DNA of 64,000 nt from Buxus sempervirens (taxonomy: Eukaryota > Streptophyta > Magnoliopsida > Buxales > Buxaceae), in assembly GCA_947561395.2 (NCBI GenBank), contig OX387190.1, forward strand, positions 14,192,858 through 14,256,857, read 5' to 3'. A program made the translations under genes and the position numbers. The stretch's first letter is position 1. The number at the start of each line of letters is the position of its first letter. Under the pieces are notes generated by a model. That model saw only the letters and a program-made list of their open reading frames with translations, had not been told where the DNA came from and did no database searches. Below are positions 1,352 through 40,112 of the stretch, in pieces.

Positions 1352-1598
1352 GTATCCGGTCAAATATACCGGATACACATAGGTTTGTGTATAACCGGCA
1401 TCAAATACCGGATACAAAAAGATTTTCGCGCGAGATTCGCGCCGATTGCCCGACAAATTCGCGGCGGCATTTAATTTTCGGATGATTATGTTTTGTATCC
1501 GGCATTCAATGCCGGATAGAAAGGAACCTCTGTGTAACCGGCCATGGAGGCCGGATATGAAAAGAGCTTAGTGTATCCGGCTTGAGTTGCCGGATACA
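1352..1598. promoter_or_regulatory. Cluster of five CCG-N11-CGG dyads (GTAT type) in LTR-A U3
   Basis: Dyads at 1352-1376, 1391-1415, 1495-1518, 1534-1558 and 1574-1598. Each has CCG, exactly 11 bases, then CGG, with flanks like GTAT and ATAC or close variants. The last dyad ends 13 bp before the TATA box at 1611, so the cluster sits where promoter-proximal binding sites would be. The function is inferred. Confidence 0.75.
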
Positions 1599-1610
1599 TT
1601 AAGTTTGTCT

Positions 1611-1619
1611 ATAAAAGGC
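1611..1619 (+). promoter_or_regulatory. TATA box of solo LTR-A
   Basis: TATAAAAGG directly downstream of the dyad cluster. It sets the orientation of the LTR and would place transcription start at about 1640. Confidence 0.7.
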
Positions 1620-2677
1620 AAACAGCAGCTCATTTCCGGGGTTGGCGATTTTTTTTGCTCTTCAGCTCTCTTCTGTCACCCATTCTCACTCGAATCCCTC
1701 ACTCCTCACCTCCCTTTGCCCACACCTCCACTCCACACCACCCCCAAGGGAAGCCCAACTACCTCTCCCCTTCTTCCTCTCCCTTTTGTGGCCACCTGGA
1801 GGAGGTGTACCTGCTGTAGCTGCCGGAGAAGGAGCTTCTGGTTGCTGTCCAGCTCTAAGGAAGAGCCTCCACATTGCCTAGAAGATCAAGGACCATCAGG
1901 TGAGGTTCCTAGTAGCCTTGTGCTGCACATATATTAAAATAAGAATTTTCTAAAATAAATTTTCAAGCTTGGTTTCATCCCTTGCATGAGTTTTTCTCTA
2001 AGGTGACATGAGCATGTATTATTGTCTCTTTCATGGCATGGAGATCACCACAGGTAAGGGGTCCACGTAAGTTTTTTTTAGGGAGCATGGGAGCTCATCC
2101 TTTGCATATTTTGGTACCTTTTAGTTGCTGACTCATGGGCATATCCTAGGCCTTGTTTTAGGAGGAGCATGTTCCTCCCCTCTCCATCCAGTGTACCCCA
2201 CGTAAGCCCCCCTTCTCTTCCCCCTTCTCTGATTTTCGTGAGATTCAAGCACGAGTTTTGGGTTTAGATACTGGTATGAGGTGTAGGGAATACATGCTAG
2301 GCCACGGGGTTACCTTACTGTCTCTTAGCATGCCTGCTTGCCTATTGATTTTATCTTTTTTACACAAGCATGACTCTACGGTTCCGATAGCCACGCCCTT
2401 AGTATTTTGTTAAACCATGCATGCTATAGATTAGGCTTGCTAACGGGGGTTTTATCATGTACTGTTTCCCGTGCATACATATGAAAGCATGATTCCCTTT
2501 CCCCTTTTTTTATTTCCTTTGTCCCCGCTGGAAGCCATGAAGGAGGCCAAATGAAGCTTCTCTCAAACCTGAACCAGTGTGAGCACATCTAGGGGCCCAT
2601 ACAGCTCATAGAAGACCTTTAGGAACCCCTGGAGGTCACCCCGAATGGCAAAACTCCAAAAAAGACCATTTTAGGGT

Positions 2678-2740
2678 GATCCGGCAACTTAGGCCGGATC
2701 ACCTAGGGACTGTGTGTATCCGGCAACTCAGGCCGGATAC
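2678..2740. promoter_or_regulatory. Two further CCG-N11-CGG dyads in the transcribed part of LTR-A
   Basis: Dyads at 2678-2700 (flank GAT/ATC) and 2716-2740 (flank GTAT/ATAC), both with an 11-base spacer and nearly identical spacer sequence. The two look like a local duplication. Confidence 0.65.
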
Positions 2741-3969
2741 ACAACAAAAATGCCATTTTCATGCTTTTTTGCTCCTTGCCAAATTTTCCTATTGTTTTAG
2801 CAAAACCAATTGAACCAACAGGGTTTCCGGGTCACCCGGAAACCCAACCGGGGACCTGGACCATGGTCCAACTTGGGAACACCAGTGGGCCCTCCAACGG
2901 GGCCCACCAAGCCCAATAAATCTCAAAAGCATGCAAAATAAACAAGCTAAGCAAAGTGAATTAATTGAACTGGGTGGGCCAAGCCCAATGCGGCCCACTC
3001 GAACCCTGGTGTATGGAATTGTTGTGTTTAAATGCATGGTTTGGCCGAGACCCCGGGCTAGGGCCCACCCAAGCCCATTAACCGAACCAAGGAAGGGTGC
3101 AAACCCTAAACCTCAAGGAACTAGGCTTTCAAGCCTAAAGTCGGACTACGGGCCCCAAGCCCAACGTCCAAATCATACTGGCAAAATTAAATAAGATAAA
3201 CTAAAAACATCCTGGCAACCATCAAGGGCCCACCTAGGGGCCCATGAACCAATGCAGACCAACTTTTTTTATATGAAAAATACTTAAACTCCAAATTGAG
3301 CAAATAAGTAAACACAACTCACTAGCCTAAGCCCAAAGGGCCTCCTAGGACTAGATAGAGGCCCACCAAGGGTACATGGGCTTAACCAAGCCCGCCAAGG
3401 ACACCGTGGGCCTTCCAACGGGGCCCACCCAATCCGACTCAGATCGCCTAAATTAAGCAAGATAAAATCAAGTAAAAGGGACCCACACCACTCAGGTGGT
3501 CCCGACAGACTTAACCTAATGGCATGTCGGATTAGGAATCGGGTGAGAAACCAAAATAAAGCTGACTCAAACCAGGGAACCCACGGGACCCGTCGACCGA
3601 CGGGGTGTATTGGGGTGTCTACGGACTTCCCCAGACCACAACCGAGACCCGACTAAGAATCTCAAGCCGTAGACTAGACTAATAGACAAGACTAGGCAAC
3701 CAGGTGTTCGCCTACACCCCATCAAGCTGTGGCGACTCCGAATTTCCCCGTGCCGCGTTTCCCACGCGCGCACACCGAGCATTGAGGCAGAACTGCAGAA
3801 GCACCAGAATGCTTTAGCCAGCCTTAGGAGCATGAGGATCAGACAAACTCTTTCAGATGATGTCATTTCCTTCTTGAGTGATCCCGCTGCAGAGGGGGCT
3901 TCTGGAGTTATTGCAGCTCAGGCAGCTCGGATTCAGGAACTTGAGGAGTGGCTAGGAGACAGAGACTAG

Positions 3970-4922
3970 CCTTATTTCCTGCACATTTTTTTTCATACCT
4001 TTGTATGAAATTGAACTCCAATAGTGGAAAGACAAAGGATTTAATTCAAAATAAATTTTTTATATTATTGGCCTCAGAATGCTCAGATGCTTGTAAAAAC
4101 AAAGGTTTTATGAAAAGTATTTGATTTATCATCACTGGCCAAAGTATAGTTTTTCTTTTTTTATTTTTTATTTTTTTGAAATTTGGTCCATGCACTTAAT
4201 CACCCATAATTAAATGAATGAAAACCAGGTTTAATAATGAAGAGGGTATTCTAAGTAATAACAAGGGATCAAAACCATCCATCTTAGGACCTTTAGAGTC
4301 ATCCCCAAATGCCTTTTCTTCCAGAATTGACCGCATTACCCAATCTGCTTGGTCTCAGTACTCGTGCTGATTTCTCTTCAAACTTGGATCCCATGATCAA
4401 CTCAACCTTTGATTTTTTTTTTATTCTTTTTTTTCTTTCTTGCCAATATTGCCCCTAGCGCCAGTTACGGTTTTCACTAGGGCCGGCTTTTGTATTCCGT
4501 CATCACCAATCTTACTCTGACATTTGAATGAACAAACTAAGATCACCGAGGGCTTAAAAATAGGACGAAACAAAGGCTAGGCTTGGTGTATGAAAGAGAG
4601 GGTATTAAAGGCCCAAAAATTTTCAAATGTGGAAATAGGTCAACCGGACTTACAGTCATGATGAATTTAACCCTTTTTCCCCCAAATTGCATTCTTTGCA
4701 TCTTTTTTCACACTTGGCTTTCATTTGCCATTTTTCATTGCTTTTCTCTCTTTTTTGTTTTTTCCTTAATTTTGCCCCAATTTGTTTTGCCCTAGTATAA
4801 GACTGTAAATCCGGTTTGGGTTTATCAAAGAAACGAACCTGCTCAACTTGGCTAGACTAAGGATTTAAAATTTGAGGGAATTAAAGAAAAATGGCCTCGG
4901 ATCATTTCCTAGTAATGTTCAC
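3970..4922. other. Spacer between convergent gene B and integrase, element 1
   Basis: AT-rich noncoding stretch where plus-strand gene B (ending 3969) and minus-strand pol (ending 4923) converge. It aligns with 25882-26951 of element 2, sharing for example a CACTAGGGCCGGC block near 4474. It lacks the four dyads present in the element 2 spacer. The short open frame at 4583-4795 is low-complexity and not supported. Confidence 0.6.
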
Positions 4923-6022
4923 TCAAGGAAAATACCTCTTTACTACATCAGAGTTAATTGGCTCAGGAAAATCTGTCCCATCCATTTCTGTCAAGATGAG
5001 TGCACCCCCTGATAGGACCTTCTTGACAACATAAGGCCCTTCCCAATTGGGCTTGAACTTACCACGAGGGTATTCCAAAAATGGTAGAATTTTCTTTAGA
5101 ACTAGGTTTCCTTCTTGGAAAGTTCTAGGCCTCACTTTCTTATTGTAGGCCCGGGCCATTCTTCGTTGATACAATTGGCCATGACATAGCGCTTTCAAAC
5201 GCTTCTCTTCTATCAGGTTGAGTTGATCACTTCTTGACTGGATCCATTCAGCTTCTTCCAATTCAGCTTCCATGAGCACTCTAAGTGATGGGATTTCTAC
5301 TTCCACCGGCAAGACTGCTTCCATCCCATAGACCAGGGAATACGGGGTTGCCCCAGTTGAAGTCCGGATTGAGGTTCTGTAGGCATGTAGAGCAAGCGGT
5401 AGCATTTCATGCCAATCCTTGTAACTCACTACCATTTTCTGAATGATTTTCTTTATATTCTTATTTGTTGCTTCCACTGCCCCATTCATCTTTGGCCTGT
5501 ACGGAGCTAACTTGTGGTGGGTGATCTGAAACTGCTCACACATCTTCTTCATGTCTTTATTCTTAATATTTGAAGCGTTGTCTGATACTATGACACTTGG
5601 CAGTCCATAGCGACAAATAATGTTGTGCTTCAAAAATTTAATAACATGGTTGCTTGTGATATTCGCATATGAGGTTGCTTCTACCCACTTAGTGAAATAA
5701 TCAATCGCTACTAGGATGAATCTGTGCCTGTTCGATGCCCTAGGGGAAATCATGCCAATGACGTCTATGCCCCGCATAGAGAAGGGCCATGGGGACGTCA
5801 TGCTGTGCAACTCGCTTGGGGGTGCATGCTTGTTATCTGCATATATCTGACATTGGTGACACCTCCTGACATGTATACAACAATCATGCTCCATGGTCGA
5901 CCAGTAGTATCCCAACCGCAGGATCTTCTTTGCAAGTATGTGTCCGTTCATATGGGGTCCACAGACTCCTCCATGTACAGTCTCGATTAACCTTTCTGAC
6001 TCAGCCTTAGCATGAGCAGAAT
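4923..6022 (-). pseudogene. Integrase of element 1
   Basis: An open frame 5951-4923 covers most of integrase. It has the zinc-binding C-x2-C end (RRCHQCQ), the catalytic core with GIDVIG (first Asp), VSDNASN (second Asp) and NGAVEATNKN (Glu), and the C-terminal GKFKPNWEGPYVVKKV block ending in KRYFP. DDE integrases of this type join retrotransposon cDNA to the chromosome. Relative to element 2 there is a small deletion near 6010-6020, which shifts the frame upstream of MNGHILAK, so integrase is cut off from RNase H. All three catalytic acidic residues remain. Confidence 0.88.
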
Positions 6023-7150
6023 GTCATTGTGTGATCTCTTGTACAAGTGTCCACCACTTAGCAGGAACTGACCAGCCAATCTCTGTATTGTCCTCTTCTC
6101 AGTAGAAGTGGTGTTTTCTGGCAAACTCCGATTGTTCAAGAAATTTTTGATATCTTGAAACCATGGCGCTTCTTCTTCGGGTGCTCCCTCTAGGATGAGA
6201 CAATAAGCCGGTTCATCCTTGACCTCAATTTCCAATGGTTTGATGTCTACCCTTTCTGGCATGTTGACCATTGAAGCCAATGTTGCTAGTGCATCTGCAA
6301 ACTGATTCTTGGCCCTTGGCATATAGTTAAAGGAAATTCGAGTAAAGTTTGTGCTTATTTCTTCCAAATACTGGTGATAGGGGATCAATTTGTGATCCTT
6401 GGTTTTCCATTCACCAGTTGTTTGGAAGATGATAAGACTCGAATCTCCGTATACGTCAAGTTCCTCTACTTCATGATCTATGGCAGCTTGCAACCCAATT
6501 ATACATGCTTCATATTCCGCAATATTATTGGTGCACTGGAATCTTAGCTTCACTGCGATTGGGATGTGGGACCCATCTGGCTTGACCAAAACTGCCCCTA
6601 TTCCATTTTCGTTCATGTTGGCGGCCCCATCGAAGAACATCTGCCAAGAACTCTCACTTTCCTCCTCTTCAGTAAACAAAATTGCCTCATCGGGAAAATT
6701 GGTTTTCAACGGTTGGTATTTAGGCAAAGGATGTGCAGCCAAGTGATCAGCTATGGCTTGACCCTTGATCGCCTTCTGAGTAATGTACGTGAGGTCAAAC
6801 TCGGACAGTAGTAGTTGCCACTTCGCCGTTTTGCCAGTCAGTGCCGGTTTCTCAAATAAATATTTCAGCGGGTCCATCCAGGATATCAATAATGTGGAGT
6901 GACTAAGGAAGTAATGCCTTAGCCTCTGAGTTGCCCACACTAGAGCACAACAAGTCTTTTCCAATGGTGAGTACTTGGCTTCATATTTTGTGAACTTTTT
7001 ACTCATATAGTAAATTGCCCTTTCCTTTCTTCCAGTCTCATCATGCTGCCCCAAGACACATCCCATCGATGTTTCCAACACTGACAAGTACAGGATCAGC
7101 GGTCTTCCTGGAGTTGGTGGCACTAGCACAGGTGGATGGCTTCTTGGCAA
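5987..7150 (-). pseudogene. RNase H plus second (archaeal-type) RNase H of element 1
   Basis: The open frame begins near PPVLVPPTPG. It contains the RT connection, a first RNase H (YYMSKKFTKYEAKYSPLEK) and then a second RNase H domain with FFDGAAN (Asp), AEYEACIIGL (Glu), YGDSSLI (Asp) and NQFADALATLAS (Asp). A second, plant-like RNase H between RT and integrase is a recognised hallmark of Tat elements. The frame starts after a deletion of about 28 nt near 7127-7140 relative to element 2 and ends at a frameshift near 6015. The protein would degrade the RNA strand during reverse transcription. Confidence 0.88.
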
Positions 7151-8350
7151 TCTTCATTCCAGACCGTCGGGTTATCTTTCCTTAGAAGTTTGAAAATTGG
7201 TTCACAGATAGCAGTGAGTTGTGCTATGAACCGGCTTATGTACTGAATTCTTCCAAGAAAGCCCCTGACCTCCTTCTCTGCTCTGGGTGATGGCATCTCA
7301 ATTATGGCCTTGGCTTTAGCCGAGTCAATTTCAATTCCTCTTCTGCTCACTATAAATCCCAGCAACTTCCCTGATGTAGCCCCAAAGACGCATTTAGCCG
7401 GGTTAAGCCGTAGACTGTACTTTCTAAGTCAATCAAACATTTTCTTCAGATTGATCAAGTGGTCCTCTTCTTTGCATGATTTGGCAATCATATCATCCAC
7501 GCAGACCTCCATCTCCTTATGGATCATGTCATGGAATAGTGCTGTCATGGCCCGCTGGTATGTTGCCCCAGCGTTTTTAAGCCCAAATGGCATGACTGTA
7601 TAGTGGAATGTGCCCTAAGGTGTGATGAACGGTGTTTTCTCTTGATCTTCTTTAGCCATCTTGATCTGATTATACCCTGAGAAACCATCCATGAAAGAGA
7701 ATAGGCTATGTACTGCAGTATTATCGACCAGAATGTCGATGTGTGGAAGCGGAAAATCATCCTTTGGGCTTGCCTTATTCAGATCTCTGTAGTCCACGCA
7801 CATCCTGACTTTCCCGTCCTTCTTTGGTACCGGCACTATGTTTGCAAGCCACTCGGGGTATGTGGAGACTGCCAGAAATCCTGCCTGGAATTGTTTGACC
7901 ACTTTGTCCTTGACCTTCAAGGTCCATTCAGGTTTCAATCTTCTCAGCTTCTGCTTAATTGGCTTAACCCCTGGCAAAATTGGCAACTTGTGTACCACCA
8001 TGTCAGTGTCCAACCCCGGCATGTCCCGATATGACCAAGCGAATACATCCTTATAGTCGGCCAAGAACTGTGTCATTTCAACACGCTGCACATTAGATAG
8101 ACATGCCCCAATTTTCACTATTTTTGGGTCATCTTCGATCCCAAGATTAATTGAAATGGTCTCCTCAATATTAGGTTGGACCCCCTTTTCATGACGTTCC
8201 AATTGATATTCAATTTCTTTTGGAACGTCTTCTTCTTCGACCTCGGTCTCTTCTTCGATCCCCATGAGATCAAAGTCAAGCTCGAAGTTGAAGTCATATT
8301 CAACCTGGTCCAATTCGGTCTGATTATATGGTTCATAAGTGGTTTGGACC
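7123..8350 (-). pseudogene. Reverse transcriptase of element 1
   Basis: The frame 8313-7615 carries the N-terminal RT motifs KKDGKVRMCVDYRDLNKA and FSFMDGFSGYNQI. The conserved Trp codon after FITP is TAG (7612-7614). The palm continues with PFGLKNAGATYQRAM, the catalytic box and LGFIVSRRGIEID down to 7123. The catalytic box reads CVDD (7492-7503) instead of YVDD, a Tyr-to-Cys change. A CGA-to-TGA stop follows near 7426. The RT would copy element RNA into cDNA primed by tRNA; this copy is non-functional. Confidence 0.88.
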
Positions 8351-8473
8351 TTTTTGAAAAACTTAAATTTTCTAGAAAAAATAGAAAATCTTTTTGGGTT
8401 TTTTGTGAGCCTTCTAAATATAATTCCCCTGAAGACAAAGGCTCATTAGGACCTTCAGGGAAATGGCATTCCA

Positions 8474-9778
8474 CTATTGGAGTTTTTTTTTGGAAGCCGC
8501 ATCAGTTTGCCAAACAAACGCTGCTTCAAAGGTAAGGGGAGTTTCCTCCCAATTATTCAATACAAGATTTTCAGGAGCGGGGGAAATAGGGAAATCCTGC
8601 TCCTCAAGCCCAGAATCCAATGCCATCATCACCGGGTGGGTACTGCCCTTTTCTGCTACAGGGCCCAGTCCAGAAATGACCTCCTCCGGAATCTTTACTA
8701 CGGCCCAGTCAATGAACGGCAACTCCTTGTCACCAACTGTATTTTCGCCCTTAGTCATGGCGAAGAATGCCCCAACATCTTCAGAGAAATCTCCATGTTG
8801 CTTGGGGTGTGGCCCAGGCCCATCTGCTGCTCCCAGTATTGGAGATGGGTTATATGGTTGCAAGGCCGAAACAAAAGGCTTTTGAAATGGGTTGATGTTT
8901 CGGTAAAGAGGCTTGGATTGGTCCATAGGAGGAGATATTTGGATTGTATAGGAGGGTTTAGGGAAATTTTCCCTTAAGTGAGGGACTTTTCCTTTGCTTC
9001 TTTTCTCTCCTTCTTTATGTTTCTGCCTTCTCCATCTTCTGGGCTTGAAGCTCAACCCTACTTTAGGGATCAATTTCTTGGCCGTGATTGGTTCCACCAT
9101 TCCCTGCAAATTGATTCCTAAGCCTTTCCCCGGGTGAAAGTGGTATTTCTCCATCACTTTCTTTATCATTTTCTCTGCAGTTGTTCCTTTATTTTCTTTT
9201 TTCTCACACCTCCCAGGTATGAAATTAACAGTTTCAAATTGAAACGAGTGAAACGCAATCTTGTCAATAGTTAAGTCCACATTTATCAAGGGTACATCAG
9301 GTGACACAATGGGAGGCACCAAATTCTCAGCTAGGACTGTTATCACCCTTTGCCCTCTTATGTATTTTACCCTTTGGTGGAGCGTGGATGGTATTGCCCT
9401 AGCCGAGTGTATCCACGGCCTTCCTAGGAGCAGATTGAAGGCTGCGGGTATATCCATCACCTCAAATGTGATGTTGAAGATATTCGGCCTAATTGTGACC
9501 GGCAGTTCAATCTCCCCTAGGGAGTGGGTCTTGGAGCTATCAAAAGCCCTCACTATCCTCCCATTTTGCTTGATCTTTGACTGATCCAAACCAAGCTTGA
9601 CAAAAGTGACTAGCGGGCAGACGTTTAACGCCGACCCGTTGTCGATTAAAACCCGTGCGATCATGCTGCCCTTACAAAGCACAGTGATATGCAAAGGGTC
9701 AACATGATAACACCCACCTGGGCTTATCTCTACTTCAGAGAAACTTATCACATTATGTGACAAGATTTGACCAACCAT
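8474..9778 (-). pseudogene. Protease and G-patch region of element 1
   Basis: A 434-codon frame. An aspartic protease domain has ARVLIDNGSALNV (active site D-N-G-S, codons at 9632-9643) and the flap/LLGRPWIHSARAIPS segment. It is followed by a G-patch-like motif HPGKGLGINLQGMVEPI, a basic RRWRRQKHKEG stretch and an acidic/proline linker. The frame ends in TAG just after a run of nine A (minus strand, 8483-8491). Retroelement proteases act as homodimers and process Gag-Pol; G-patches bind nucleic acid or helicases. The protease centre is intact here, unlike in element 2. Confidence 0.85.
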
Positions 9779-11770
9779 TTTGCCAAGTTGGTCCGGATCA
9801 ATGGTCTGGGATACGTGTGCACTCTATAGCACCCTTAACAATGCATCCCTGTGCTTTTCAGAATTTAGCAAAAGGCCCAGTATTGAAATCTGGGTCGGGA
9901 CCTTGTTCAGCTGATCCACAAGATTGAATTCACTTTTTTTTATAATTTTTATGAGGTATGATGCCTCATTTTCTGCACCCTGGGGGTGTCTTCTCCTACT
10001 TTGTTTTTTCCTTTTTGTTTTCTTTTTTCTTCTGTTTCTTTTTTCTCTTTCTCCGTCTCTGTCTCTTTTTCTTTCTCTTCACTCCCTGCACATCTCCCCG
10101 ACCTCGTCATGAGGTTCACCTCCTCCTGGTTCTGGTTTTTAACCACAGGAACCGTAGCCGTGACTCCCTCGTTGTAATTCCATGGTACAGTGGCCTCAGA
10201 ATAGGCTAGTTTAGGGACATTAACCACCAATGGTTGGAGTTTGGACCGGGATGTATGGGCCGGTTTAGGGATATTGCAGGATGGCTAAATATTTACAACC
10301 AAGGGTTGGAGTTTGGATTTTGTGGGGACAGAAGAGGTGATGGAAGCAGTGGTGGGGTAAAGGTTGATGACCAGTGGAGCCTTTGATGGCTTGGATGGTG
10401 AACAAGTGGGTGGACTGCAATTAAAAACCAATGGAGGCCTTGCAGTGTTTATTTGGACCATGAGGGAAGAGACCCGGTTCAAAGAGGAGCTAATGTCCTC
10501 AGCAGCATGGTTGTTTTTCTGGGAGACCATATTGATCTCCTCTTCTTCTTTTTCTTGGAAAAAATGGACCTTGACCGTGGTCCCTACGGGAGCTATGAGC
10601 TGAGATGGGTCAAAGGTCCTCCTCGTGGTGGATATGGCAGTGATAGAGTTGGATGGCCCTGCCCCATTGTGGTACGGCAGAGAGTTCTGCCCAATATCAT
10701 TTCCGGACTGTGCGGGTGCAACAGTGTTAAAGACTAAGGCCTTCTGATCCAACAGATCCTGGACCGCATGCTTCAGAACCCAGCAAGCATCTATAGAGTG
10801 CCCTGGTGCACCGATGTGGAAGTCACAGGTGACTGCCGGATCGAAGTTCCTGCCCTTGGTGGCATTTGGGCTGGGCTCCTTCAAAGTCACATATTCCCCT
10901 TTCAGCAGGGTTGGCAGCAGTTGGGAAAGAGATACTGGGAGAGGCGTAAACACTCTGTTCCTTCTTGCAGCTAACCAGGCCTCCCTCTCTTCCTTGGTAA
11001 AAGTCCTCCTCTGGTTTGCAGGTATGGAGGGGGAGAAGTTGACATTGAGTGGGGTCTGATAGGAATGCTGGGCGTGTTGGGCTTGCTGGGGTGCAGAGAT
11101 GTTCACATGGAGCAGTTTCTTAGCCGGAGGAGCCTGGACCAGGTTTACCTCTCCTTCTTTTCTGGCTCCGTTCTTTTTGAACCCAGTTCCCTTCTTCTTT
11201 GCCAGGGAAGCAGCGGAATCAAACTACCCGGTCAAAGTAGAATAGTCGATGAGCCTTCCTGACTTGACCCCCTCCTCGATCCGGTCTGCCACCTGAACCA
11301 GGGCTGCAAAATTGGCGGTAATCTGCACCACCAAATGGTTGTAGAAGGGCTGCCCCAGTGTGCCCATAAATGTTGAGATCATTTCAAGCTCCATCATAAG
11401 CGGCCTGACCTGGGAGGCGGCCTCTCTCCACCTCTTGGCATACTGCCTTACAGATTCATCTTTCCCCTTACTCATCCTCATCATGTCGTACCGGTCTGGC
11501 ACGATCTTAGAGTTAAACTTATATTGGTCCAAGAAGGCGTTGGCCAAGTCCTTCCACCTCCTGATCCTTCCATGGTCCACTGTGGCGAACCACCTAAGAG
11601 CTGACCCTGTCAAACTCCTCTGAAAGAGTTGGATCAGTATGCCATCATCCCGGCCAAACTGGCACAAAGCCCTACAGTACAATTTCAAATGGCTCTATGG
11701 GCAGCCCGTGCCATCAAATTTGTCGAAGTCCGGGCACCTGAACTTAGCCGGTAGACATACATCCGGGTAC
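9779..11770 (-). pseudogene. Gag core, zinc-finger-like region and linker of element 1
   Basis: Gag runs from the LTR-B insertion at 11770 down to the protease. The Retrotrans_gag core includes LKLYCRALCQFGRDDGI, WFATVDHGRIRRWKDLA and RQYAKRWREAASQVRP (frame 11688-11224). Below it, 11106-10285 contains a C-x2-H-x5-H-x4-C type knuckle (CDFHIGAPGHSIDAC) followed by VLKHAVQDLLDQ, as in Tat gag proteins, then a Ser/Pro-rich linker. A TAG replaces the Met of the element 2 CPMSHL motif at 11695-11697, and further stops lie between 11223 and 11107 and between 10284 and 9779. Gag would form the particle that packages element RNA. Confidence 0.85.
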
Positions 11771-11860
11771 TGTAGACACCCCAAATTGCACAAACAATCA
11801 TCAAAAATCATTATATCCTTAAAAGCCAGCACAGAAATTGAAGAAAATGAATTTTTACCT

Positions 11861-12002
11861 GTATCCGGTAACTCAGGTCGGATACAAGCAGGCCTTTTCG
11901 TATCTGGTAACAAGTACCGGATACAAACAATGCTTAGTGTATCCGGTATCATATACCGGATACCTTAAGGCCCTTGTGTATTCGGTCTGATATACCGGAT
12001 AC
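11861..12002. promoter_or_regulatory. Four CCG-N11-CGG dyads (GTAT type) in LTR-B U3
   Basis: Dyads at 11861-11885, 11900-11924, 11939-11963 and 11978-12002. All have an 11-base spacer; the second and fourth have one changed base in the left triplet (CTG, TCG). They repeat at a near-constant 39-bp period and lie about 155-300 bp upstream of the TATA box. Confidence 0.75.
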
Positions 12003-12157
12003 ATTAGTTTTGCTCAAAATTAGGGTTTTCCGAGAGAAATCACTTGTTACCATCATGTCCCTCATTTAATGAGGGGAAATCTCGGAAACAACCCTAGGGT
12101 TAAGGTTGGGGGGTTCTAGACATTAAGTTGTGTCTACCAATGACCTTAGCCTTTGCC

Positions 12158-12167
12158 TATAAATAGG
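12158..12167 (+). promoter_or_regulatory. TATA box of solo LTR-B
   Basis: TATAAATAGG, 387 bp from the LTR start, in the same relative position as TATA motifs in the two full-element LTRs. Confidence 0.7.
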
Positions 12168-14052
12168 AGGCTCCTCTTCAAGCAAAAGGCCAAGTTTTTG
12201 GAGATCGAAGAACTCCGAGTGAAGAAGGGAACCGCTGCCGGATTGCTTCCAGAACCCCAGGTAAGCCTCAACCTCCTTTATTTTCTGTATTTAATTTATT
12301 AGATCTAGATCTCTTCTTCTACCTTTCTGTAGAATAAAGCCTCTTTTTGTGTGTGGAAATCCTTCCCCGGCTCAAAATATCTCAAGACTCCCCCTAGCCG
12401 TAAAACGTGAAGGTGGGATCTAGGAGAAACGAGACTGGGGATTGACCCTAGTGCTAGAACCCATGTAGCATAAGGCTTTTGAATGATTGAAAACCGTTCT
12501 ATAATCAAAGTACCCTTGATTATCTCGAAGAACCGTGTTTAACGGGGAGAGAGAACAGAGGGAAACGATAATGGAACGGAACCCTATGCTATTTTAGAAC
12601 CTCATTTTGATGGAGATATATGCATGCTATGTTGTTCTATTGATCTTATATGGTTTCTCACATTTGCACATACATAGCACCGTTTTGACGGGATAGGCTC
12701 ATATTTGGGGTTTATTACATTCATTGTGATAAATCTCAAATAAATGGCCTCAATCAAATTCTGGAATGTTTTAAATGTTTTTCAAAAGTTTTGGATTCAT
12801 CTCACACGAATCTCACACACTTGATCACAGTTTTGAGTCGGTTTTACTCAAAGGTGGCCTAACTGGACATCACCTGTACCCTTACTTCGGACGCTCATAA
12901 CTTCATCATCCGGATGAATTTTGGAGTGATTCTAGAACCATGGGAAAGTTGAGGCTGTCTAGTTTATGTCCACCAAATTTCATAAATTTCCATCGAACGG
13001 ATTTTTGACACCTCTCTGTCGAAGTTCAGTGGACAGTTCAGGTTCAAATACAGAACTTGTCACTTCGACGGAGCGCCATGTGTTCGTTTTAAGTCCGATT
13101 CGAGTGATTTTTATCTCTGAGTACTCCGTTATGAGTCTATTTTCAAATCCAGTTGGTTTCATAATTTTTGGATTCCATTTGAATTATTGGTAGCCGATTT
13201 ACTCAGAACTGTTCATTTGTACTTTTCTGGGTAAATCTGTGATCTTCGGGGCCTGTTCGGGAGACCACCCAAGGCACATCCGAAGGGATTTTTGTATGAG
13301 GCTAGTTTATTTTGAAAGATGGCCATACAGACTTCAATCACACCAAATTTCGTGGATTTTTATGGAGTGGATTTTTCTATGCAATTTCCCAAAGTTGCCC
13401 GCTTATCACTTTTAAAAATCCCCAGCAGCAACTTCAAAGGAGCATAACTCCTAGGATTTTCATCGGAATGAAGTGAAATTTTGCATGAGACTCTTATTTA
13501 CCCTAATCTTTCAAATGAATTTGGTTTGGTTCAATTTAGAATTGGATTTGAATGATTTCAAGGCAAATGGCATACTTTTTACCGAATTTTCCGGATTTGA
13601 GTTAACTTGGTTTTAAGCAACTTGAGCTTTGGATTTCCATCTTTTGAGATATTCCAGAAATGATATTGATATAAGAGAGGATCTAGAATCCATCTAGATC
13701 TTCATATGAAAATATCATACATTGGTCCTTTTTCAAGGTTTTCTATGATTTTAGCAAGCTTTCTTATTTTTGCATGAACATACACTTGGCAACCACTTTG
13801 TGTGGATGAATGGGGGTGCCTAACACCTTCCCCCGTTCATAATCTAATCCCCTTACCCATCTCTGGATTTGATTTTCAAGTAGGGTTATTTTTACCTTAG
13901 AATTGGCATTTTTGCACTTTTTAATGATTTTGAACATTTTGGTGTCCATTCTCACCCCAAAATCATGAATGGTGGCGACTCTCCCACTTTTATTTAGAGC
14001 CCCGTGTGTTGACGGAGGGATGATCATTCGGGTGATTTTCCCATGTCTCACA

Positions 14053-14467: not shown

Positions 14468-14630
14468 GGCTAGGGCTTTGGATCTGGTCACGGGAGCAAT
14501 GATTGCAAGTAAGTGTACCATGGGAAAGAAAAGCAAAGAAACATGTCAGCTTCCATTTAATCCTGAGTCACACCCCTATAGATGTAGACAAGTAGGTCAG
14601 GTGAACACCAGTCCAGATTTTTTTGTTTGC

Positions 14631-14677: not shown

Positions 14678-14689
14678 TGTTGGAATAGT

Positions 14690-15483: not shown

Positions 15484-15625
15484 GTATCCGGCATAATATA
15501 CCGGATAAGGCTATGGCTTACTGTATCCGGCTAATTATGCCGGATACACGCATAGGTCTTTGTAACCGATAATGTATACCGGATATGAATAAACTTCTTC
15601 TTAACCGACCTGAGTTGCCGGTTAA
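15484..15625. promoter_or_regulatory. Four CCG-N11-CGG dyads (GTAT type) in the leader of element 1
   Basis: Dyads at 15484-15508, 15523-15547, 15562-15586 and 15601-15625, all with exactly 11 bases between CCG and CGG and all at a 39-bp period. The last has TTAA...TTAA flanks. The cluster sits in the leader between gag and the PBS and mirrors the cluster in the LTR U3. Confidence 0.75.
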
Positions 15626-28175: not shown

Positions 28176-28214
28176 GAAATTCTTGATATCTTGAAACCAT
28201 GGTATTTCTGCTTC

Positions 28215-29057: not shown

Positions 29058-30404
29058 TTATTTTCTGCCTGTTTCATCATGCTGCCCCAATACACATCCC
29101 ATTGATGTTTCTAAAACCAATAGATACAGAATCAATGGTTTTCCTGGAGTTGGCGGTACTAGAACAGGTGGATTTAACAGATAATCCTTTATTTTATCGA
29201 ATGCTTGTTGGTAATCCTCATTCCATGTAGTTGGGTTGTTCTTCCTTAGAAGCTTAAAGATCGGCTCACAGATAGCAATGAGCTGTGCTATGAACCGGCT
29301 AATGTATTGAATTCTTCCCAAAAAACCCCTAACTTCTTTTTCTGTTTTAGGAGGTGGCATCTCAATGATTGCCTTTGCCTTGGACGGGTCTATCTCAATC
29401 CCTCTTTTGCTTACAATGAATCCCAATAATTTCCCTGACGTGGCTCCAAAAACACACTTTGCTGGATTAAGTCTTAGGCTGTATTTCCTTAAACGGTCAA
29501 ATACCCTCTCTAGATTAATCAAGTGGTCATCCTCTTCACAGGAATTGGCGATCATGTCGTCTACATAGACCTCCATCTCTTTGTGGATCATGTCATGAAA
29601 AAGGGCCGTCATGGCTCGCTGATACGTTGCCCCGGTATTCTTCAGTCCAAAGGGCATGACTGTGTAGTGAAAGGTTCCCCAAGGAGTGATAAAAGCGGTT
29701 TTCTCTTAATCTTCCTTTGCCATCTTGATTTGGTTATACCCAGAAAAGCCGTCCATAAAGGAGAACAAGCTGTGTACTGTCGTGTTATCAACCAGGGTGT
29801 CGATGTGTGGCAAGGGAAAATCATCCTTCGAGCTTGCCTTATTCAAGTCTCTGTAATCTACACACATCCTGACTTTTCCATCCTTCTTTGGAACAGGGAC
29901 TATATTAGCTAGCCAATCAAGGTATGTGGAAATCACCAAAAATTCGGCCTAAAACTGCTTTACCACTTCATCCTTGACTTTTAAAGTCCACTCGGGCTTC
30001 AACCTTCTCAATTTCTGCTTAATGGGCTTCACTCCTGGCAGGATTGGCAGCCTGTGTACAACCATATCTGTATCCAACCCTGGCATATCCTGATAAGATC
30101 ATGCGAACACACCCTTGTAATCGGCCAAGAATTGGGACATTTTCTTCTGCTGCATATCAGACAGGCATGCATCAATCTTTACAATTTTTGGGTCCTCTTC
30201 GGTTCCCAGGTTTATGGAAATGGTTTCTTCAATATTAGGTTGAATACCCTTTTTGTGACGTTCCAATTGATATGATATTTCCCTTGGAAGGTCATCATCT
30301 TCGGCCTCGGTCTCCTCTTTGATCCTCATTAGGTCGAAGTCGAAGTCGTATTCAACTTGCTCTAATTCATTCTGCAGATATGGTTCATAAACAGTCTGGA
30401 CCAT
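29058..30404 (-). pseudogene. Reverse transcriptase of element 2
   Basis: The frames 30404-30099, 29939-29706 and 29657-29058 together cover RT: DYRDLNKASSKDDFPLPH, FSFMDGFSGYNQIKMA, PFGLKNTGATYQRAM, the catalytic YVDD (29556-29567, intact) and LGFIVSKRGIEIDPSK. At least three nonsense codons break it: a Trp position read as TGA near 30100, TAG near 29950 and TAA near 29709, plus the TAA at 29055-29057. The upstream acidic segment (VEYDFDFDLMRIKEETEAE) is the linker after protease. Confidence 0.88.
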
Positions 30405-30560
30405 TTTGAAAGCTTTAGGTTTTCTAAAAAGGTTGAAAAATCTTTTTTGGTTTTTTGAGAACTTCTAAAGAGGCTTTTCCTGAAGATGAAGGTTCATTAA
30501 AATCTTCAGGAAAAGGGCAATCCACTAATGGAGTTTTTTTTTGGAGGTCGCAATTGATTG
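30405..30560 (-). other. Protease-RT junction with conserved A9 run
   Basis: The region between protease and RT has stops in the protease frame in both elements. A run of nine A (minus strand, 30534-30542; in element 1 at 8483-8491) is conserved. In the -1 frame after it both copies stay open for about 30-40 codons with matching residues (CxFPExxNEPxSSG). Ogre elements are known to have an intron near here; a TCTTCAG acceptor-like string follows in both copies, but I see no good donor. Confidence 0.45.
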
Positions 30561-33500
30561 TCAACCATATGCGGCCTCAAATGTCAATGGGATTTCTTTC
30601 CAATTTTTTAGGACAAAGCCCTCTGGAGCAGGTGGTATAGTGCAAACCTGCTCCTCCTCAAGTTCTGTATCCGATACCATCATTACCGGATTTGAAAAAC
30701 TGCCCTTTTCTGCTTCGAGGCTGAGTTCAGATGTGACCCCATCTGGGATCTTGATCGAGGCCCAGTCAATAAAAGGAACCTCCTTTTCTGCTTTCTCTTT
30801 TCCTTCATCCTCTGTCATTGCAAAGAATGCCCCAGCTTCTTCTGTGAAGTCCTGCTGCTCTCGTGACAGTGGCTCAGGCTCATCCACGGCTTTAGGCGCC
30901 GAAGTGGGTGAAAGGGGGATGAAAGGTTGAAAGGTTGAGGAAAAAGGTTTTTTGAAGGGATTATCATTGATGTATGGAGGTTTGGAGGAATCCGCGGGAG
31001 GAGACAATTGAATAGTATGAGAAAGCTTCGGAAAAGTTTCCCTTAAATGAGGAAATTTTTCTTGACTCTTTTCCTTTTCATTGTCATTCTCTTTCTGCTG
31101 TCTCTTTTTCCATCTCCTTATCTTCATTCCTAGTCCTGCTCATGGGACCAGCTTCTGTGCCTTTATAGGCTCCACCCTCCCTTGCAGATTAATTCCCAAC
31201 CCTTTTCCTGGGTGGAAATCCCATTCTTTCAAAACCTTCTCCACCATTTTTTCGGTGCATGTCAACTTCTCCTTCTTTTTTAAACACCCCCCAGGTATGA
31301 AGTTGACTGTTTCAAACTGAAAAGAATGAAACGCAATTTTGTCGGCCGTTAATTCTACATTAATGAATGGTACGTCAGGTGGTATGACGGGAGGGACTAA
31401 ACTCTCGGCTAGGACTGTTACCACCCTCTGACCCCTTATATATTTCACTCTTTGATGAAAGGTAGATGGTATCGCCCTAGCTGAGTGGATCCATGGCCTT
31501 CCTAGGAGAAGATTGAAGGCAGCAGGAATATCTATCACTTCGAATGTGATATTGAAGATATTCGGTCCGATAGTAATCGGCAATTCAATCTCCCCTAGGG
31601 AGTGTGTTTTGGAGCTATCAAAAGCTCTCACTATCCTTCCGTTTTGTTTGATTCTGGATTGATCCAGACCAAGTCTAACAAACGTTACCAAGGGACAGAC
31701 GTTTAAGGCTGACACGTTGTCTATTAGGACTCGGGCTATCATGTTACCCTTACAAAGCACTGTGATGTGCAGAGGGTCCACATGATAACATCCGCCAGGG
31801 CTTATCTCGCTTTCAGAAAAGCTTATTACATTATGAGATAAGATCTGGCTGATCATCATTCCGAGCTGGTCTGGCTCAATCGTTCTTGGCACATGAGCAC
31901 TCTGAAGTACCTTCATTAATGAGTCCCTATGCTTTTCTGAATTAAGCAATAATCCCAATATTGATATCTGGGCAGGGATTTTAATTAATTGGTCGACAAT
32001 ATTGAATTCGCTCTTCTTCAATATTTTTAAGAGGTATGCTGCCTCATCATTGGCGACCTGGGGGGTGTCTTCACCTATCTTGGCCTTACCCTTCTGATTT
32101 TGTTCTGCCTCTTTCTTTTCCTTCTCTGACTCTTGCTCTTTTCTTTCCATACACTTTCCTGATCTTGTCATGAGATTTACTTCCTCATGACTCCGATCCC
32201 TGGCCACTGGGATAGTGGTTGTAAAACCCTCGCTGTAGTTCCAAGGTACAACAGTTTCTGAGTAGGAGGGTTTAGGAACATTGAATACTAGAGGCTGGAG
32301 ATGAGATCTCGGTGCAGGAGTTGATGTGGGAGTAAAGTTAGATGGAGGCACTCCAATGACCAGAGGCGAGGATTGCCTGGGTTCCTTTGGTTGAGAGGAT
32401 CTTAAGGTTTGAGAAGAGACAGAAGTGATTGATGCTGTGGTGAGGTCATAATTAATGACCAAAGGTGGTTTGGATGATGGAGTGGGTGGAGGAGCAACAG
32501 CTTGGTTGCAATTAATGATGAGAGGGGGTTTGGATACATTAAGCTGGGCCATGAGAGAAGCGGCCCGGTTCAAAGAGGCATTAATGTCCTCTACAGTCTT
32601 GCCACTTCCTTTATTTCCTGAAATGACGTTGATTTGTTCCTCTATCTCTTCTTGGTCAAAATAGACCTTAACGGACGTCCCTATAGGCGCAATTAATTGC
32701 AAGGGATCAAATGTCCTAGGTCTAGAAGAGACGGCCCCTACAAAATTGGAAGGACCTGCCCCATTATGCTGGGGCAGAGGATTCTGACCACTGTCAGTCC
32801 TGGCGAGAAAGGGCACAGCCGTGTTAAACAACAAGGTTTTCTGATCGATCAAATCCTGAATGGCATGCTTTAATGGCCAGCACCTGTCTGTAGGGTGTCC
32901 TGGTGCACCCATATGGTATTCACAGGTGGTGGAAGGATCAAAATTCTTTCCCTTTGAAGCATTCGGATTTGGTTCTTTCAGAGTAACATACCCTGCGTTT
33001 AACAGGGTTGGCAAAAGCTGGGATAGAGTCACGGGAAGAGGGGAAAAGACCCTATTCCTTCTGGACGCCATCCAAGCGTCCCTCTCCTCTTTCGAGAATA
33101 CCCTTTTTTGGTTGGGCATTGCTACTTGAGGAACATTAATGTTGAGAGGGTTTTGATAGATCGATTGTGGTTGCACTGGCATGGATGGAGGTGCTGAAAT
33201 GTTAACTTGGAGAGGTTTCTTGGAGGGTTGGGGTTGTACCATATTTACTTCCCCTTCTTTCTTCCCTCCATTCTTTCTTGCCCCATTTCTTTGCTTTTGG
33301 GCAGAAGAATCAAATGTGGGCTCCTGCTGATGAGCCATGGCAGAGTGGTCGTAGATTCTCCCGGATCTGATTCCATCTTCAATCCGGTCCACGACTTGCA
33401 CTAAGGTAGCAAAACTGGTGGTAATCTGACCCACCAAGTGATTGTAAAATGGTTGCCCTAGTGTGCCAATGAAGGTGGTTACCATCTCGGGCTCCATCAT

Positions 33501-34316
33501 GGGCAGCCTGACTTGGGAGGCGGCCTCTCTCCACCTTTTGGCATACTGCCTTACTGTCTCATCTCTTCCCTTGCTCATCTTCATCATATTGTACCTGTCT
33601 GGCACGATGTCAGCATTGAATCTGTATTGAGCTAGAAAAGCATCAGCTAGATCTTTCCACCTTCTAATTCTGCCATGGTCCACTATTGCGAACCACCTTA
33701 AAGCTGCCCCAATCAGGCTCCTCTGGAATAGCTGGATCAGGATGCCGTCATCCCGGCCAAATTGGCACAATGCCCCACAGTAGAGCTTCAGATGGCTCAT
33801 TGGGCAGCCTGTGCCGCCGTACTTCTCGAAGTCCAGGCACTTAAATTTGGCCAGTAGGCATGCGTCGGGGTACATACATAGATCCTTGAAATTGGTACCG
33901 CCCAACATGTTGATCCCTCTTACTTCTTTCAGCTCTTCTTGGATCGATTCCAGCTTGTCCAAGAATTTCTTCTCCATTTCTACCCTCAGTCTTTCCTTCT
34001 CCTTCTCCTTCTCCCTTTCATATTCGGATTCCTCCTCCCGTATCACAATAGGTTCGGGGGTTGGTTGGTAGAGTTCAGGTTGAAGTGGGATAGGTTGGAC
34101 TGGTGGTGGAAGGTCAGCCTGGGGTTGAGCTGGTGGTGCATTGTGAGATGATGAAGCCTGGTGAACTTGAGCCTGCGCCTGTTGCGCCTACATCTGGGCC
34201 TGAGCCGCTTGGTTGGCCAGCAGATTTTCCAGTAGTTTTGTCATCCCTGCCACTTGCTCTTGCAGTTGAGCAAAGGCTTCAGCAGAAACAGTGGACTGTT
34301 CTTCAATAGGGTTCAT
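30561..34316 (-). pseudogene. Gag-protease polyprotein of element 2
   Basis: The gag start is probably Met at 34316 (MNPIEEQ). A TAG at 34188-34190 follows, then a 968-codon open frame 34046-31140. In order: a coiled coil (EKKFLDKLESIQEELKEV), the Retrotrans_gag core (LKLYCGALCQFGRDDGI to QVVDRIEDGIRSGR), the knuckle CEYHMGAPGHPTDRC with PLKHAIQDLIDQ, a long Ser/Pro linker, protease and the G-patch HPGKGLGINLQG. A TGA at 31140 interrupts before the basic tail (30561-31127). The protease centre reads D-N-V-S (31711-31722) where element 1 has D-N-G-S. Gly at that position is essential in aspartic proteases, so this copy is probably catalytically dead. Confidence 0.88.
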
Positions 34317-34970: not shown

Positions 34971-35029
34971 TGGAATTAAGGCTTCCACAGCCTCTTGAAA
35001 TTACGCAGGCTTTCAAGAGCCTATGAATT

Positions 35030-35987: not shown

Positions 35988-36074
35988 AACTGTGTATTCA
36001 AGATGGTTCGGCTAAAACCGTATCCAAACTGCGGTTGCAGCAAAAATGCAGGCAACCGCATACTCAGGACGGTT
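35988..36074. promoter_or_regulatory. Three dyads (AA...TT type) in the leader of element 2
   Basis: Dyads at 35988-36008 (degenerate CTG...TGG), 36016-36036 and 36054-36074, all with an 11-base spacer. The position corresponds to the GTAT-type cluster at 15484-15625 in the leader of element 1. Confidence 0.7.
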
Positions 36075-36858: not shown

Positions 36859-37085
36859 TCGTGTTTCTCCACCTTCAAGCGTGGGGGTTTTGGGTTTTGG
36901 CTTATTGGCAACTTAGAGCTCAAGCCTAGTGTATGACCAGAATTCTAGATCCACCATGTCATCACATCATTGGCTCAAAGCTTCTAAGGTGAATGTTTTC
37001 ACTTTCGCTTTCTGAAGTAACGACCTCGGTGCTCCAAGCTACACACATTCTTTGTTCAACTTCCTATAGGTTATAGGTAGGCTGT
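36859..37085 (-). other. Conserved noncoding leader block of element 2
   Basis: Matches 16111-16350 of element 1 closely while flanking leader sequence is much more diverged. No reading frame is shared. Confidence 0.6.
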
Positions 37086-37673
37086 GTAAAAAAAGAAAAA
37101 GGTGCACAAGTGCATTTGAAAAAGTGGGTCACATTCATCACAACGTCCCACCCTTGCCACTCTTTTTTCCGTAGCCATGCAAGCATAACCAAAATCACCA
37201 AGGCATGATTTAGAGATCATTTTTGAAGCAAACAAACATGAGTAAAACAAGGCGATTTAAAAACGCCTAGCATGCTCATACTAAACATGTATTCACACAA
37301 GCATCATGCAAATATGAAAGCATGTTATCATGTTGTACAAAAAAACAAATAAATCATGGTGAACATGCTTGATACAAAGTAAACATCTCTCAAAATTCTG
37401 ATCTCATGCTGATGATATCAAAGTTCTAATCAAAGCATGCTTATCATGAAAATATGGCAACCTAGCATGGTAAGACTATCTAGGTCCCCTAACATGGTTT
37501 TGAGCATAACCAAAGCATCACACATCACATGCCCTATGTTCATGGGTCTTACATTCTCTAAAATAGAAGCACACAAATCAAACATGCTTATCACAAATTG
37601 ACAAAACAGCAAACAATTCATAAAAGTCAATCAAACATGCACAAGCAATCAAAACATGGCTCAATTCCTATAG

Positions 37674-37691
37674 TCCCCAGCAGAGTCGCCA
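37674..37691 (-). other. Primer-binding site of element 2
   Basis: TGGCGACTCTGCTGGGGA on the minus strand, two bases inside the LTR end, identical to that of element 1. It resembles the complement of a plant tRNA-Arg 3' end. Confidence 0.8.
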
Positions 37692-37693
37692 GT

Positions 37694-40112
37694 TGTGAGA
37701 CATGGAAATGTGTCATCTAGGATGACTTCCGATATCGTCACGCGGGGATCAATAAATGTTATGAGTCACCACCATCCATCTTAAGGTGTGAATGGACACC
37801 AAAGGGTTCATAGAAGCCAAATAGAGCCAAAGTAGCTCTAAGACAAGGAAAAATCCAGAGATTAGGTAAGGGGAATTATTTATGAGTGGGGGAAGGTGTT
37901 AGGCACCCCCACTCATCCGTCTAAGACGGTTGCCACATGCTTGCTCATGCTAAGGATTGTTTGCTAATCAAAATAGACAAAGGATGCTTAAAAGTAAGCA
38001 AAATGTAAGTGATTATTCCACATGAGTAGTCCAATGAGTTTAGACTCTCCTCATGGATATATCACTTTAGAACTTCATGAGTGAAGGAAAATCCAAGTAA
38101 AATTTGAAGCAAAACCAATTCAAAGCAAATCTGGAAAAATCATATTATGAGAACTTGAAAGCTTCGATTAACCATAACTCACTCAATTTAAATCCAAATC
38201 CAATGAAACCAAAGCCATTTGAAAACTGGTATATAGTAGAGTATACAGTAAAAATTTCAGCTCAATTTGATTTAAAATGAGAGAGAAATCCACATCTGAA
38301 ATCTGCTGTTATAACTCAGAAAAAGTGGTGAGTAGGCATTTTCAAAGTCTTATTCGTGGAGTTTGGCTCAATAAAAATCCATGAAAATTTGCATGGAAGA
38401 AGTATGTGGTGCCATCTTTCCAAAGAAATAAATCTCACACCAAACTCTATCCGGATGTGGCTTGTGTGCTCTCTCGAACAGGCCTAGAAGACCACAGATT
38501 AGCTCTGGACTATGCCAGCAAGCAGCTCTAAGTCCATCAAGCACACAGGACTCAAATCAAATCAAAATCTGCTGAAACCAGTTGGAAATGAAAATAGACT
38601 TCTCAAGGAAAACTCAGCAACTGAAATCACTCGAAACAGATTAAAACTGAGCACATGGTGCACCATCAAAGCGGCAAGTTCAGCAATCTGGGCTGAACTG
38701 ACTTACAAGCTTTGAACAGATGGTGTCAAAAATTGGTTCCATAAAAGTAAACGAAATTTTCCAGATATAAACTAGACATGCTCATCTATCACATGTCTTT
38801 GGAATCACTTAAAATTTCATCCGGAGGATGAAGTTATGAGCATTCTAAGATAGGCCATGGATGCTGCCCTGTTTTGAAGTTTTTCGAAGAGAAAACCAAA
38901 ACTAGTGTATGTGTGCAAGTGAATTCGACCAAAACACTTGAAAATCAACAAAAAAAATCTCATGAAGTTCTAGAATTCATTCTGAAGCCAATAATTTCAG
39001 ATTTCCCGTATTAAACATGGAAATCCAAGATCTAGCTTATTTGATGAAAATGGTGAAAAGTGTGTGAATAGGTGGAAATCCATTCTCTAGGAGAAGGCTG
39101 GAATCCATTGCCATTGAGAGCAAGGATTCACACAATTTCTCCAGAAGCAAATGCATAAACATCAGAAAAATCATCCATACGCTTAAAATAACCAAATAGC
39201 ATGCCCTTCATCACTTGTAGGTTCTAAGCCTAGAGGATCCATTTCTACTTTTTTTTCCTAAGGCTCTCTCTTCACGTTTTACGGCTAGAGAGGATTCCCA
39301 GGTACTTTGGAAGAGGTTTGGGACTTTAAAAATGCACAAAAGGCCTTACACTACAGAAAGGTAGAAGATGAGAGTGTAAATGTAAAGGAGAAGCAAGAAA
39401 TGTAAAAAGAGCTTTACCTTGGTAGCTTGAGCACTTGAGTGGACAATCCAGTAGAGTTCCTCTTCTTCTTGCAGAGCTTCTATGCTTCAAATTGCCAACC
39501 CTTTGCAAGAGGAGGACCCCTCTATTTATAGGTCAAGCCAAGGGTAGAAAGGTCCCAAGGGTAGGCCTAAAAACTCTTCTAGATTATTCCAATTCTCCTT
39601 GAAGGCTTGAATTGGAGTAATTTAGCAAGTTTCGGAGGGTGAAATAGGGATTTCAAGTCACTAAGAGAGAGGTAATATTCATAAATAAGGCTCAGAGATC
39701 GAGCCATTTCGCAAATCCCCGAAACAGCCAAAACCGTATACACAGTGCGATTTCCACAGAACCATCACTATATGTGCGGTTTCTATGTAAATTCACCTCA
39801 ACCGCACATACAGGGCGGTTCCAATTCAGTTACGCTCGCCATGATTGCTGTCGATGTGTCCCAATGGCCGAAGCTTCCGGAAGCCACGTGGCAGCTCACG
39901 CGATAAGCATGAACATCAACCGTGCTATGTATGTGGTTGCAACCGTACATACAGGGCGATTGAGACCAAATTCTCAAAAACCGCACATTCAGTACGGTTT
40001 GCACCATTTTGGAGTGTTTTTTAGTGTTTGACACATGTCAAGGCTCAAATAAAACATTTAAAGTTTTTTTTTAGGGTTCTCTTATATTGAGGTGCAATTT
40101 GGGGTGTCTACA
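37694..40112 (-). mobile_element. 5' LTR of element 2
   Basis: 2419 bp, minus-strand TGTAGACACCCC...GTCTCACA, followed by the PBS. TATA motif TATAAATAG at 39522-39530. U3 holds six dyads. The shared TTCACGTTTTACGGCTAG block is at 39271-39288. The outer flank is catcc (40113-40117). It is clearly related to, but well diverged from, the element 1 LTR. Confidence 0.9.
39732..39999. promoter_or_regulatory. Six dyads (AA...TT type) in U3 of the element 2 LTR
   Basis: Dyads at 39732-39752, about 39760-39781, 39800-39820, 39918-39938, 39941-39961 and 39979-39999. Five keep the 11-base spacer. The second has a 12-base spacer together with a changed triplet (CCA) and is the only exception in the window. 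All lie between the TATA motif and the LTR terminus. Confidence 0.72.

Follow-up and report, generated by a model that had tools for sequence, protein, structure and literature searches.

In Arabidopsis, the anti-silencing VANC proteins, which remove DNA methylation, bind arrays of motifs carried by the VANDAL transposons that encode them (PMC5735166), and the plant mobile domain (PMD) proteins MAIN and MAIL1 have been linked to a promoter motif called DOWN (PMC7156037, PMC9899485). In long terminal repeat (LTR) retrotransposons of the Tat clade, a PMD gene is present in 57% of Ogre elements and Transposase_28 in 23% of Retand elements (PMC6317226). The function of the antisense extra genes of plant LTR retrotransposons, and of the PMD of gypsy elements, is described as unknown in the relevant passages of PMC7264820 and PMC9289625. 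This work concerns a stretch of 64,000 nucleotides from Buxus sempervirens (contig OX387190.1, positions 14,192,858 to 14,256,857, assembly GCA_947561395.2; hereafter the window), which contains two Ty3/gypsy Tat-clade LTR retrotransposons, both on the minus strand, with element 1 nested in element 2. Arrays of the dyad CCG-N11-CGG occupy the U3 (unique 3') region of the LTRs, the leader, and the flanks of two antisense genes, A and B. The reading that we consider rather probable, from the sequence, is that these dyads are operators for a dimer, most likely of the element's own antisense-encoded PMD protein (B, A or A:B).

The window contains 30 exact CCG-N11-CGG sites, with three sites at N10 and six at N12, and in 200 dinucleotide shuffles of the window the mean was 1.5 and the maximum 6. 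Among gaps 0-40, the runner-up was N37 with 21 sites; the N24 and N37 peaks are an arithmetic consequence of CCGG dyads being spaced 39 bp apart. The opposite polarity, CGG-N11-CCG, was found at seven sites. At least four of the five outer flank bases were paired at 14 sites with N11 versus one site in total for the other 27 gap lengths in the 3-30 range, and paired-flank N11 dyads appeared in the shuffles at 0.03. Most of the exact dyads (26 of 30) sit in arrays, 16 being of the TATCC type and 10 of the AACCG type. The four outside the arrays (1164, 19754, 22928 and 37729) were omitted from the class comparison, as was the array site 39763, which has two altered core bases. Seven other array sites show one altered core base (11904, 11982, 19523, 26370, 39734, 39920 and 39943).

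An earlier note on this DNA had described 36 such dyads, one of them with a gap of 12, and a 39-bp repeat. The dyads are real and far above chance, with a slightly lower count here (33-34); all of these array dyads have a gap of 11, and none with a gap of 12 was found. The 39-bp repeat was confirmed in the TATCC arrays, where it accounts for 45 of 57 steps of up to 130 bp among the first 91 genome places listed, but not in the AACCG arrays of the window and its vicinity, where the steps are 28, 38, 39 and 41 bp. AACCG steps were also counted at 26 listed places, hand-picked.

Concerning the genome-wide counts, these and all the inferences below come from one genome of 676.5 Mb. CCG-N11-CGG was counted 163,369 times, compared with 43,280 for N10 and 40,613 for N12, which means a surplus of about 121,000 sites over the neighbouring gaps. 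This is the sharp peak that the earlier note had anticipated, and the flat gap distribution that it had named as the contrary outcome did not occur. The reversed-pattern control gave 143,005 (N10), 126,325 (N11) and 105,655 (N12), and it is a weaker baseline because it lacks CpG. Chance origin of the dyads was ruled out by the shuffles and these gap counts.

The gap was also counted with the flanks included. TATCCG...CGGATA was found at 43,308 places over gaps 2-30, with 41,458 of them at gap 11 and a mean of 66 for each of the 28 other gaps. AACCG...CGGTT gave 34,718 places over the gap range, 19,195 of them at gap 11, and the other gaps averaged 554. Many of the first-listed matches in this range were AACCGAACC-type repeats with no relation to the dyads; since these repeats contaminate the range search, the exact-gap count was used for AACCG and the range search was dropped as a stand-alone proof. 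A third form, CCCGTA...TACGGG, was present at 12,803 places, and the gap-11 geometry was seen in 49 of the 50 distinct places listed.

Furthermore, 20 gene B loci were hand-picked from 118 scored hits (5,751 candidates), and all 20 present at least one exact dyad upstream. In the upstream and downstream windows of these loci, 102 sites have gap 11, with 55 different spacers among them, and the remaining 27 gap lengths in the 3-30 range together account for 44. The flanks are of the CCCGTA type at seven loci and of the AACCG type at the usual places at 11, while one locus has AA flanks otherwise arranged and one has just one exact site, which is of another type. The locus L061/L102 also shows three degenerate dyads, spaced by 28 bp, whose TGA/TCA-like flanks may represent a fourth type.

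Such numbers could arise with no function at all, by tandem duplication of one unit that was spread by a very abundant element family, as high copy number follows from element abundance. In fact, the 10-bp linkers between the 39-bp units have an identity of 0.41 versus 0.26 when shuffled, and this likeness indicates that the arrays grew partly by old tandem duplication. The alignments point the other way. They comprised 15 AACCG rows (11 of the 20 picked loci plus the window, L012, L020 and L027) and seven CCCGTA rows (seven of the 20), two of the 20 being omitted. Mean pairwise differences in the core, adjacent arm, spacer and background were 0.037, 0.000, 0.118 and 0.084 for AACCG upstream, 0.030, 0.022, 0.125 and 0.101 for AACCG downstream, and 0.036, 0.048, 0.139 and 0.131 for CCCGTA upstream. 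In the same order of sets, core and arm together differed less than the spacer (p 0.0007, 0.004 and 0.02) and less than the background (p 0.003, 0.003 and 0.005), and the spacer was indistinguishable from the background (p 0.21, 0.51 and 0.95), in a test whose sites were set by exact dyads in one row, with a slight bias to the core, and whose columns are non-independent. The arms are kept while the spacers change at the background rate in the three aligned sets, even though CCG and CGG are methylation contexts that mutate easily. Moreover, the gap is common to three flank types and the steps differ (28, 38, 39 and 41). The outcome in which recent duplication of one unit explains everything, which the earlier note had also set against its claim, did not occur, and we find an absence of function scarcely credible.

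The spacers, which the earlier note had described as varying freely, do not do so. A preference is shared between sites: the mean pairwise identity of the spacers at the 16 TATCC-type window sites is 0.51 versus 0.25 when shuffled, and 54 listed AACCG sites have an oriented preference resembling CTGAGTAT. This asymmetric centre appears in both orientations within one array (23990 and 24087).

The dyads of the window are placed as follows, the arrays being given with no strand:

19445..19578, U3 array of the element 1 5' LTR; dyads at 19445, 19484, 19523 (one change) and 19562, step 39
15488..15621, leader array of element 1; dyads at 15488, 15527, 15566 and 15605, step 39
1356, 1395, 1499, 1538 and 1577, then 2681 and 2720, dyads of solo LTR-A
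11865, 11904 (one change), 11943 and 11982 (one change), dyads of the solo LTR in element 1 gag, with a TATA box at 12158
39734..39997, U3 array of the element 2 5' LTR; dyads at 39734, 39920 and 39943 (one change each), 39763 (two changes), 39802 and 39981
36018..36072, leader dyads of element 2, at 36018 and 36056
26303..26386, array between gene B and pol of element 2; dyads at 26303, 26331 and 26370 (one change)
23990..24103, promoter array of element 2 gene B; dyads at 23990, 24018, 24059 and 24087, at the same position in relatives

The leaders also carry other repeats outside the dyad arrays, namely seven copies of a 76-bp tandem repeat in element 1 (14680-15212) and tandem repeats of 137 and 77 bp in element 2 (34637-35256).

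Regarding promoters, a TATA box lies 16 bp past the end of the element 1 gene B array, and the first array of LTR-A is followed by a TATA box at 1610, 16 bp past the last dyad. The distance is 159 bp past the last dyad in the gag solo LTR and about 200 bp from the closest dyad in the element 2 5' LTR, and no match to a TATA box was found between the array and the start in element 2 gene B or in L040. Among the places listed on C1 between 3.40 and 4.26 Mb, one order of TATCCG sites recurs four times: a four-dyad array, then after 3.4-3.7 kb a second array, after another 11.4-11.8 kb a third, after 4.0-4.4 kb one isolated site, and after 0.65-1.2 kb the first array again. By analogy with element 1, these would correspond in turn to the U3 of the 5' LTR, the leader, the promoter of gene B, the side of gene A and the 3' LTR.

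The dyads might act instead as hairpins that help to package or stabilise the element RNA, with stems of 5-9 bp and loops of 7-11. The sites in U3, in the leader and at genes A and B are all inside the genomic RNA span, and single dyads fold at -7.2, -14.8 and -10.4 kcal/mol. Nevertheless, the gap is fixed, whereas loops usually allow changes in length, the arrays directly precede TATA boxes, and the asymmetric centre occurs in both orientations in one array. We consider RNA hairpins very unlikely.

The type of flank depends on the element. In the half-site table, built from 39 array sites selected by position and flank pairing, element 1 has TAT in 30 of 34 half-sites, AA in three and TGT in one, over five arrays, and element 2 has AA in all 44, over six arrays. 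Flank type is near-uniform inside each element and different between the elements despite the nesting. In the tree of gene B first exons, one clade (98/96) unites L031 with the seven CCCGTA loci; element 1 adjoins this clade (94/86) and the AACCG loci fall outside. Gene B clade and flank type go together, which linkage and shared ancestry may also explain.

These patterns bear on another explanation, in which the elements exploit a transcription factor of the host, or two host factors acting as a fixed pair. The placement of the arrays at promoters agrees with it, ONSEN uses heat-shock factors, and AACCG and GGATA presumably resemble MYB-type sites. The three flank types found in one genome, on the other hand, track the element and not the host, and a single host factor leaves the uniform change across five or six separate arrays unexplained; to our knowledge, no plant factor has such a long and rigid geometry. 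Hence, a host factor appears unlikely, although it is the alternative to which we give most weight.

The candidate readers are genes A and B, because their domain family has been tied to a promoter motif in Arabidopsis. Both genes are antisense to pol in both elements, and in the window they lie at:

91..679, continuing at 3832-4174, plus strand, remnant of the second exon of element 1 gene B, antisense to pol
21012..23739 (approximate limits), plus strand, gene A region of element 2 with PF10536, antisense to pol, frame broken or spliced
24236..25900 (approximate end), plus strand, antisense to pol, element 2 gene B with DUF7745 and probably two exons, its frame broken

The first exon of element 1 gene B and its promoter array are left of the window (L082). 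Gene A matches the plant mobile domain, PF10536 (E 4e-13 and 6.6e-13 in two profile searches), and gene B matches DUF7745, PF24924 (E 4e-15); in Pfam at E up to 10, DUF7745 and PMD were the sole strong families. In intronless relatives the two profiles match one common stretch. Open frames come in pairs in the relatives of gene B that have any, and a small intron is implied by alignment with an intronless relative. The C-terminal stretch of gene B looks like a coiled coil from its sequence. For one query no protein relatives outside the genome scored, in a database from which plants are perhaps missing. A second clade of gene B, intronless, abundant in the genome and devoid of these dyads close to the gene, was also observed (L009-L011, L013-L019, L021-L026, L028-L030 and L032-L038).

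The symmetric dimeric DNA-binding protein proposed in the earlier note gains support from the N11 peak, the conserved arms, the placement before TATA boxes and the two orientations of the centre, with the spacer partly constrained. The fixed gap, conserved arms, pre-promoter placement and both orientations of the centre argue for recognition of double-stranded DNA by a dimer, and flanks that are near-uniform within an element and different between elements in one nucleus argue for a reader that co-evolves with the element. In the proposed mechanism, each half of the dimer would read CCG plus two or three flanking bases, and the 11-base gap would set the distance between the two reading heads. 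With arrays in steps of 28 or 38-39 bp in U3, in the leader and beside A and B, the target of the protein would be the transcription of its own element, and with a half-site flank changed by family, the protein of each family would be directed to the copies of that family. The effect would be positive, by activation or protection from silencing, judging by placement and precedent, and self-repression is also possible. Such a circuit could amount to self-recognition of the VANC type, here in an LTR retrotransposon. More widely, the lineage may run orthogonal switches, in which PMD dimers act on their own CCG-N11-CGG operators with at least three half-site codes and about 120,000 sites in 676 Mb, a claim that we believe and doubt in equal measure.

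Several observations weigh against an element-encoded dimer, beginning with the reliance on a single genome and the bias of the conservation test to the core. Among one-change dyads, C>T in the 5' arm outnumbers G>A in the 3' arm (11 vs 3), which leans to hairpins because a U-G pair is kept on the gene B strand; this tally, in which inherited copies and chance hits are mixed and which refers to the antisense strand of the genomic RNA, has little weight. Element 1 mixes three AA half-sites into its flanks, all of them in the leader array 15488..15621, and the only exact dyad of L061/L102, a gene B locus, is flanked differently again. The sites and the gene are physically linked, so that shared ancestry alone yields the agreement between clade and flank. 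Concerning the proteins, profile searches gave no zinc finger, helix-turn-helix or other known DNA-binding domain in genes A and B, and one query had no sequence match in PDB. Moreover, the PMD/DUF7745 family is not always accompanied by the motif: in the 26 loci of the distant gene B clade (1.5-kb flanks only) there was no dyad with at least three of five flank bases paired. That clade gave 11 gap-11 matches, none with paired flanks, and four loci of the dyad clade gave 24, with 14 paired; palindrome scans at a few distant-clade loci found no array. Finally, the DOWN motif, CATGCAGTTT, looks unlike the dyads when compared by appearance.

The remaining features of the two elements are:

L103:1804 (left of the window) to 19684, minus strand, element 1, with its LTR pair and the target duplication GACCG inside element 2
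17336..19684, minus strand, element 1 5' LTR; LTR pair with a Kimura two-parameter (K2P) divergence of 0.040, duplication GACCG
L103:1804-4098, left of the window, element 1 3' LTR
4413..11770, minus strand, element 1 pol and most of gag, broken
800..3774, plus strand, solo LTR-A in element 1 gene B, target duplication CCGAG
11771..14052, plus strand, solo LTR in element 1 gag, target duplication GGTAC
From the 3' LTR left of the window to 40112, minus strand, element 2
38785..40112, minus strand, element 2 5' LTR, U3 side; inner limit approximate, matching L103:1-1327 (its 3' LTR)
26448..34187, minus strand, element 2 gag-pol, frames broken

The gag of element 1 is interrupted by the solo LTR, its first part being near 14058-14545. 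The LTR pair of element 2 is 96.6% identical over 1,327 bp (K2P 0.034), and the order of insertion follows from the target duplication GACCG, as LTR divergences of 0.040 vs 0.034 are insufficient alone. The gag-pol regions of the two elements are 74% identical. Tat-clade elements are distinguished by an additional RNase H domain, placed after the first RNase H and ahead of the integrase (PMC6317226). In element 1, RT_RNaseH and then RVT_3 are found in 5987-7150, with the integrase in the next frame (4923-5951), and element 2 has the same order of RNase H, RVT_3 and integrase, so both elements belong to the Tat clade (Ogre/Retand). As to Ogre versus Retand, judged by gene content and position only, a PMD is present and the genes are antisense between pol and the 3' LTR. 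Elsewhere, a minus-strand frame at 44419-45087 matches NmrA-like and is possibly a host gene fragment.

As the earlier note had stated, no previous account of the motif in Tat/Ogre elements was found in the open-licence literature, surveyed in part. Literature matches to the motif strings, among the matches listed, shared only the letters CGGATAC, and the LOB-domain literature gave nothing useful among the matches listed. A 2025 paper by Pelissier et al. (Nat Plants 11:2286) reportedly speaks in its title of PMD protein-DNA motif modules. Gal4-type fungal Zn2Cys6 sites, CGG-N11-CCG, have triplet half-sites and a rigid 11-base gap and are bound by a coiled-coil dimer. The dyads share the triplet half-sites at a rigid 11-base gap, but they have the opposite polarity, and no zinc cluster was found in genes A and B by profile searches.

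The Retand protein TRP28 is also encoded antisense between pol and the 3' LTR in the Tat clade, with predicted DNA binding and a suggested role in regulation; its domain is PF04195, and the consulted parts of PMC11963269 give no target motif. MAIN and MAIL1 are likewise PMD-type proteins connected with a promoter motif, and they are partners, as A and B might be. Unlike A and B they are host genes, and the consulted parts of PMC7156037 and PMC9899485 leave direct DNA binding open. A candidate target with an exact geometry makes the function of the antisense PMD genes testable. If the proposal is true, the Ogre-type PMD gene gains a function and defines a new class of dimers that read specific DNA sequences, and self-recognition uses a protein family that plants also employ in their own gene control.

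The VANC/VANDAL system shares an element-encoded protein and a short motif in non-coding tandem arrays that varies between related families (PMC5735166). In the Buxus elements, too, the motif arrays are in their own non-coding regions, and the motif varies between families along with the protein. Judged by Pfam families, gene B showed no sequence relation to VANC, the search at E up to 10 giving it no match to DUF1985. VANDALs are Mutator-like DNA transposons and VANC21 has the motif YAGTATTAY, with no dyad and one orientation, as described in the sections consulted of PMC5735166, whereas here an LTR retrotransposon with PMD/DUF7745 proteins presents a dyad of fixed gap. If the proposal holds, self-recognition of the VANC kind would have arisen also in LTR retrotransposons, which make up a large part of plant genomes.

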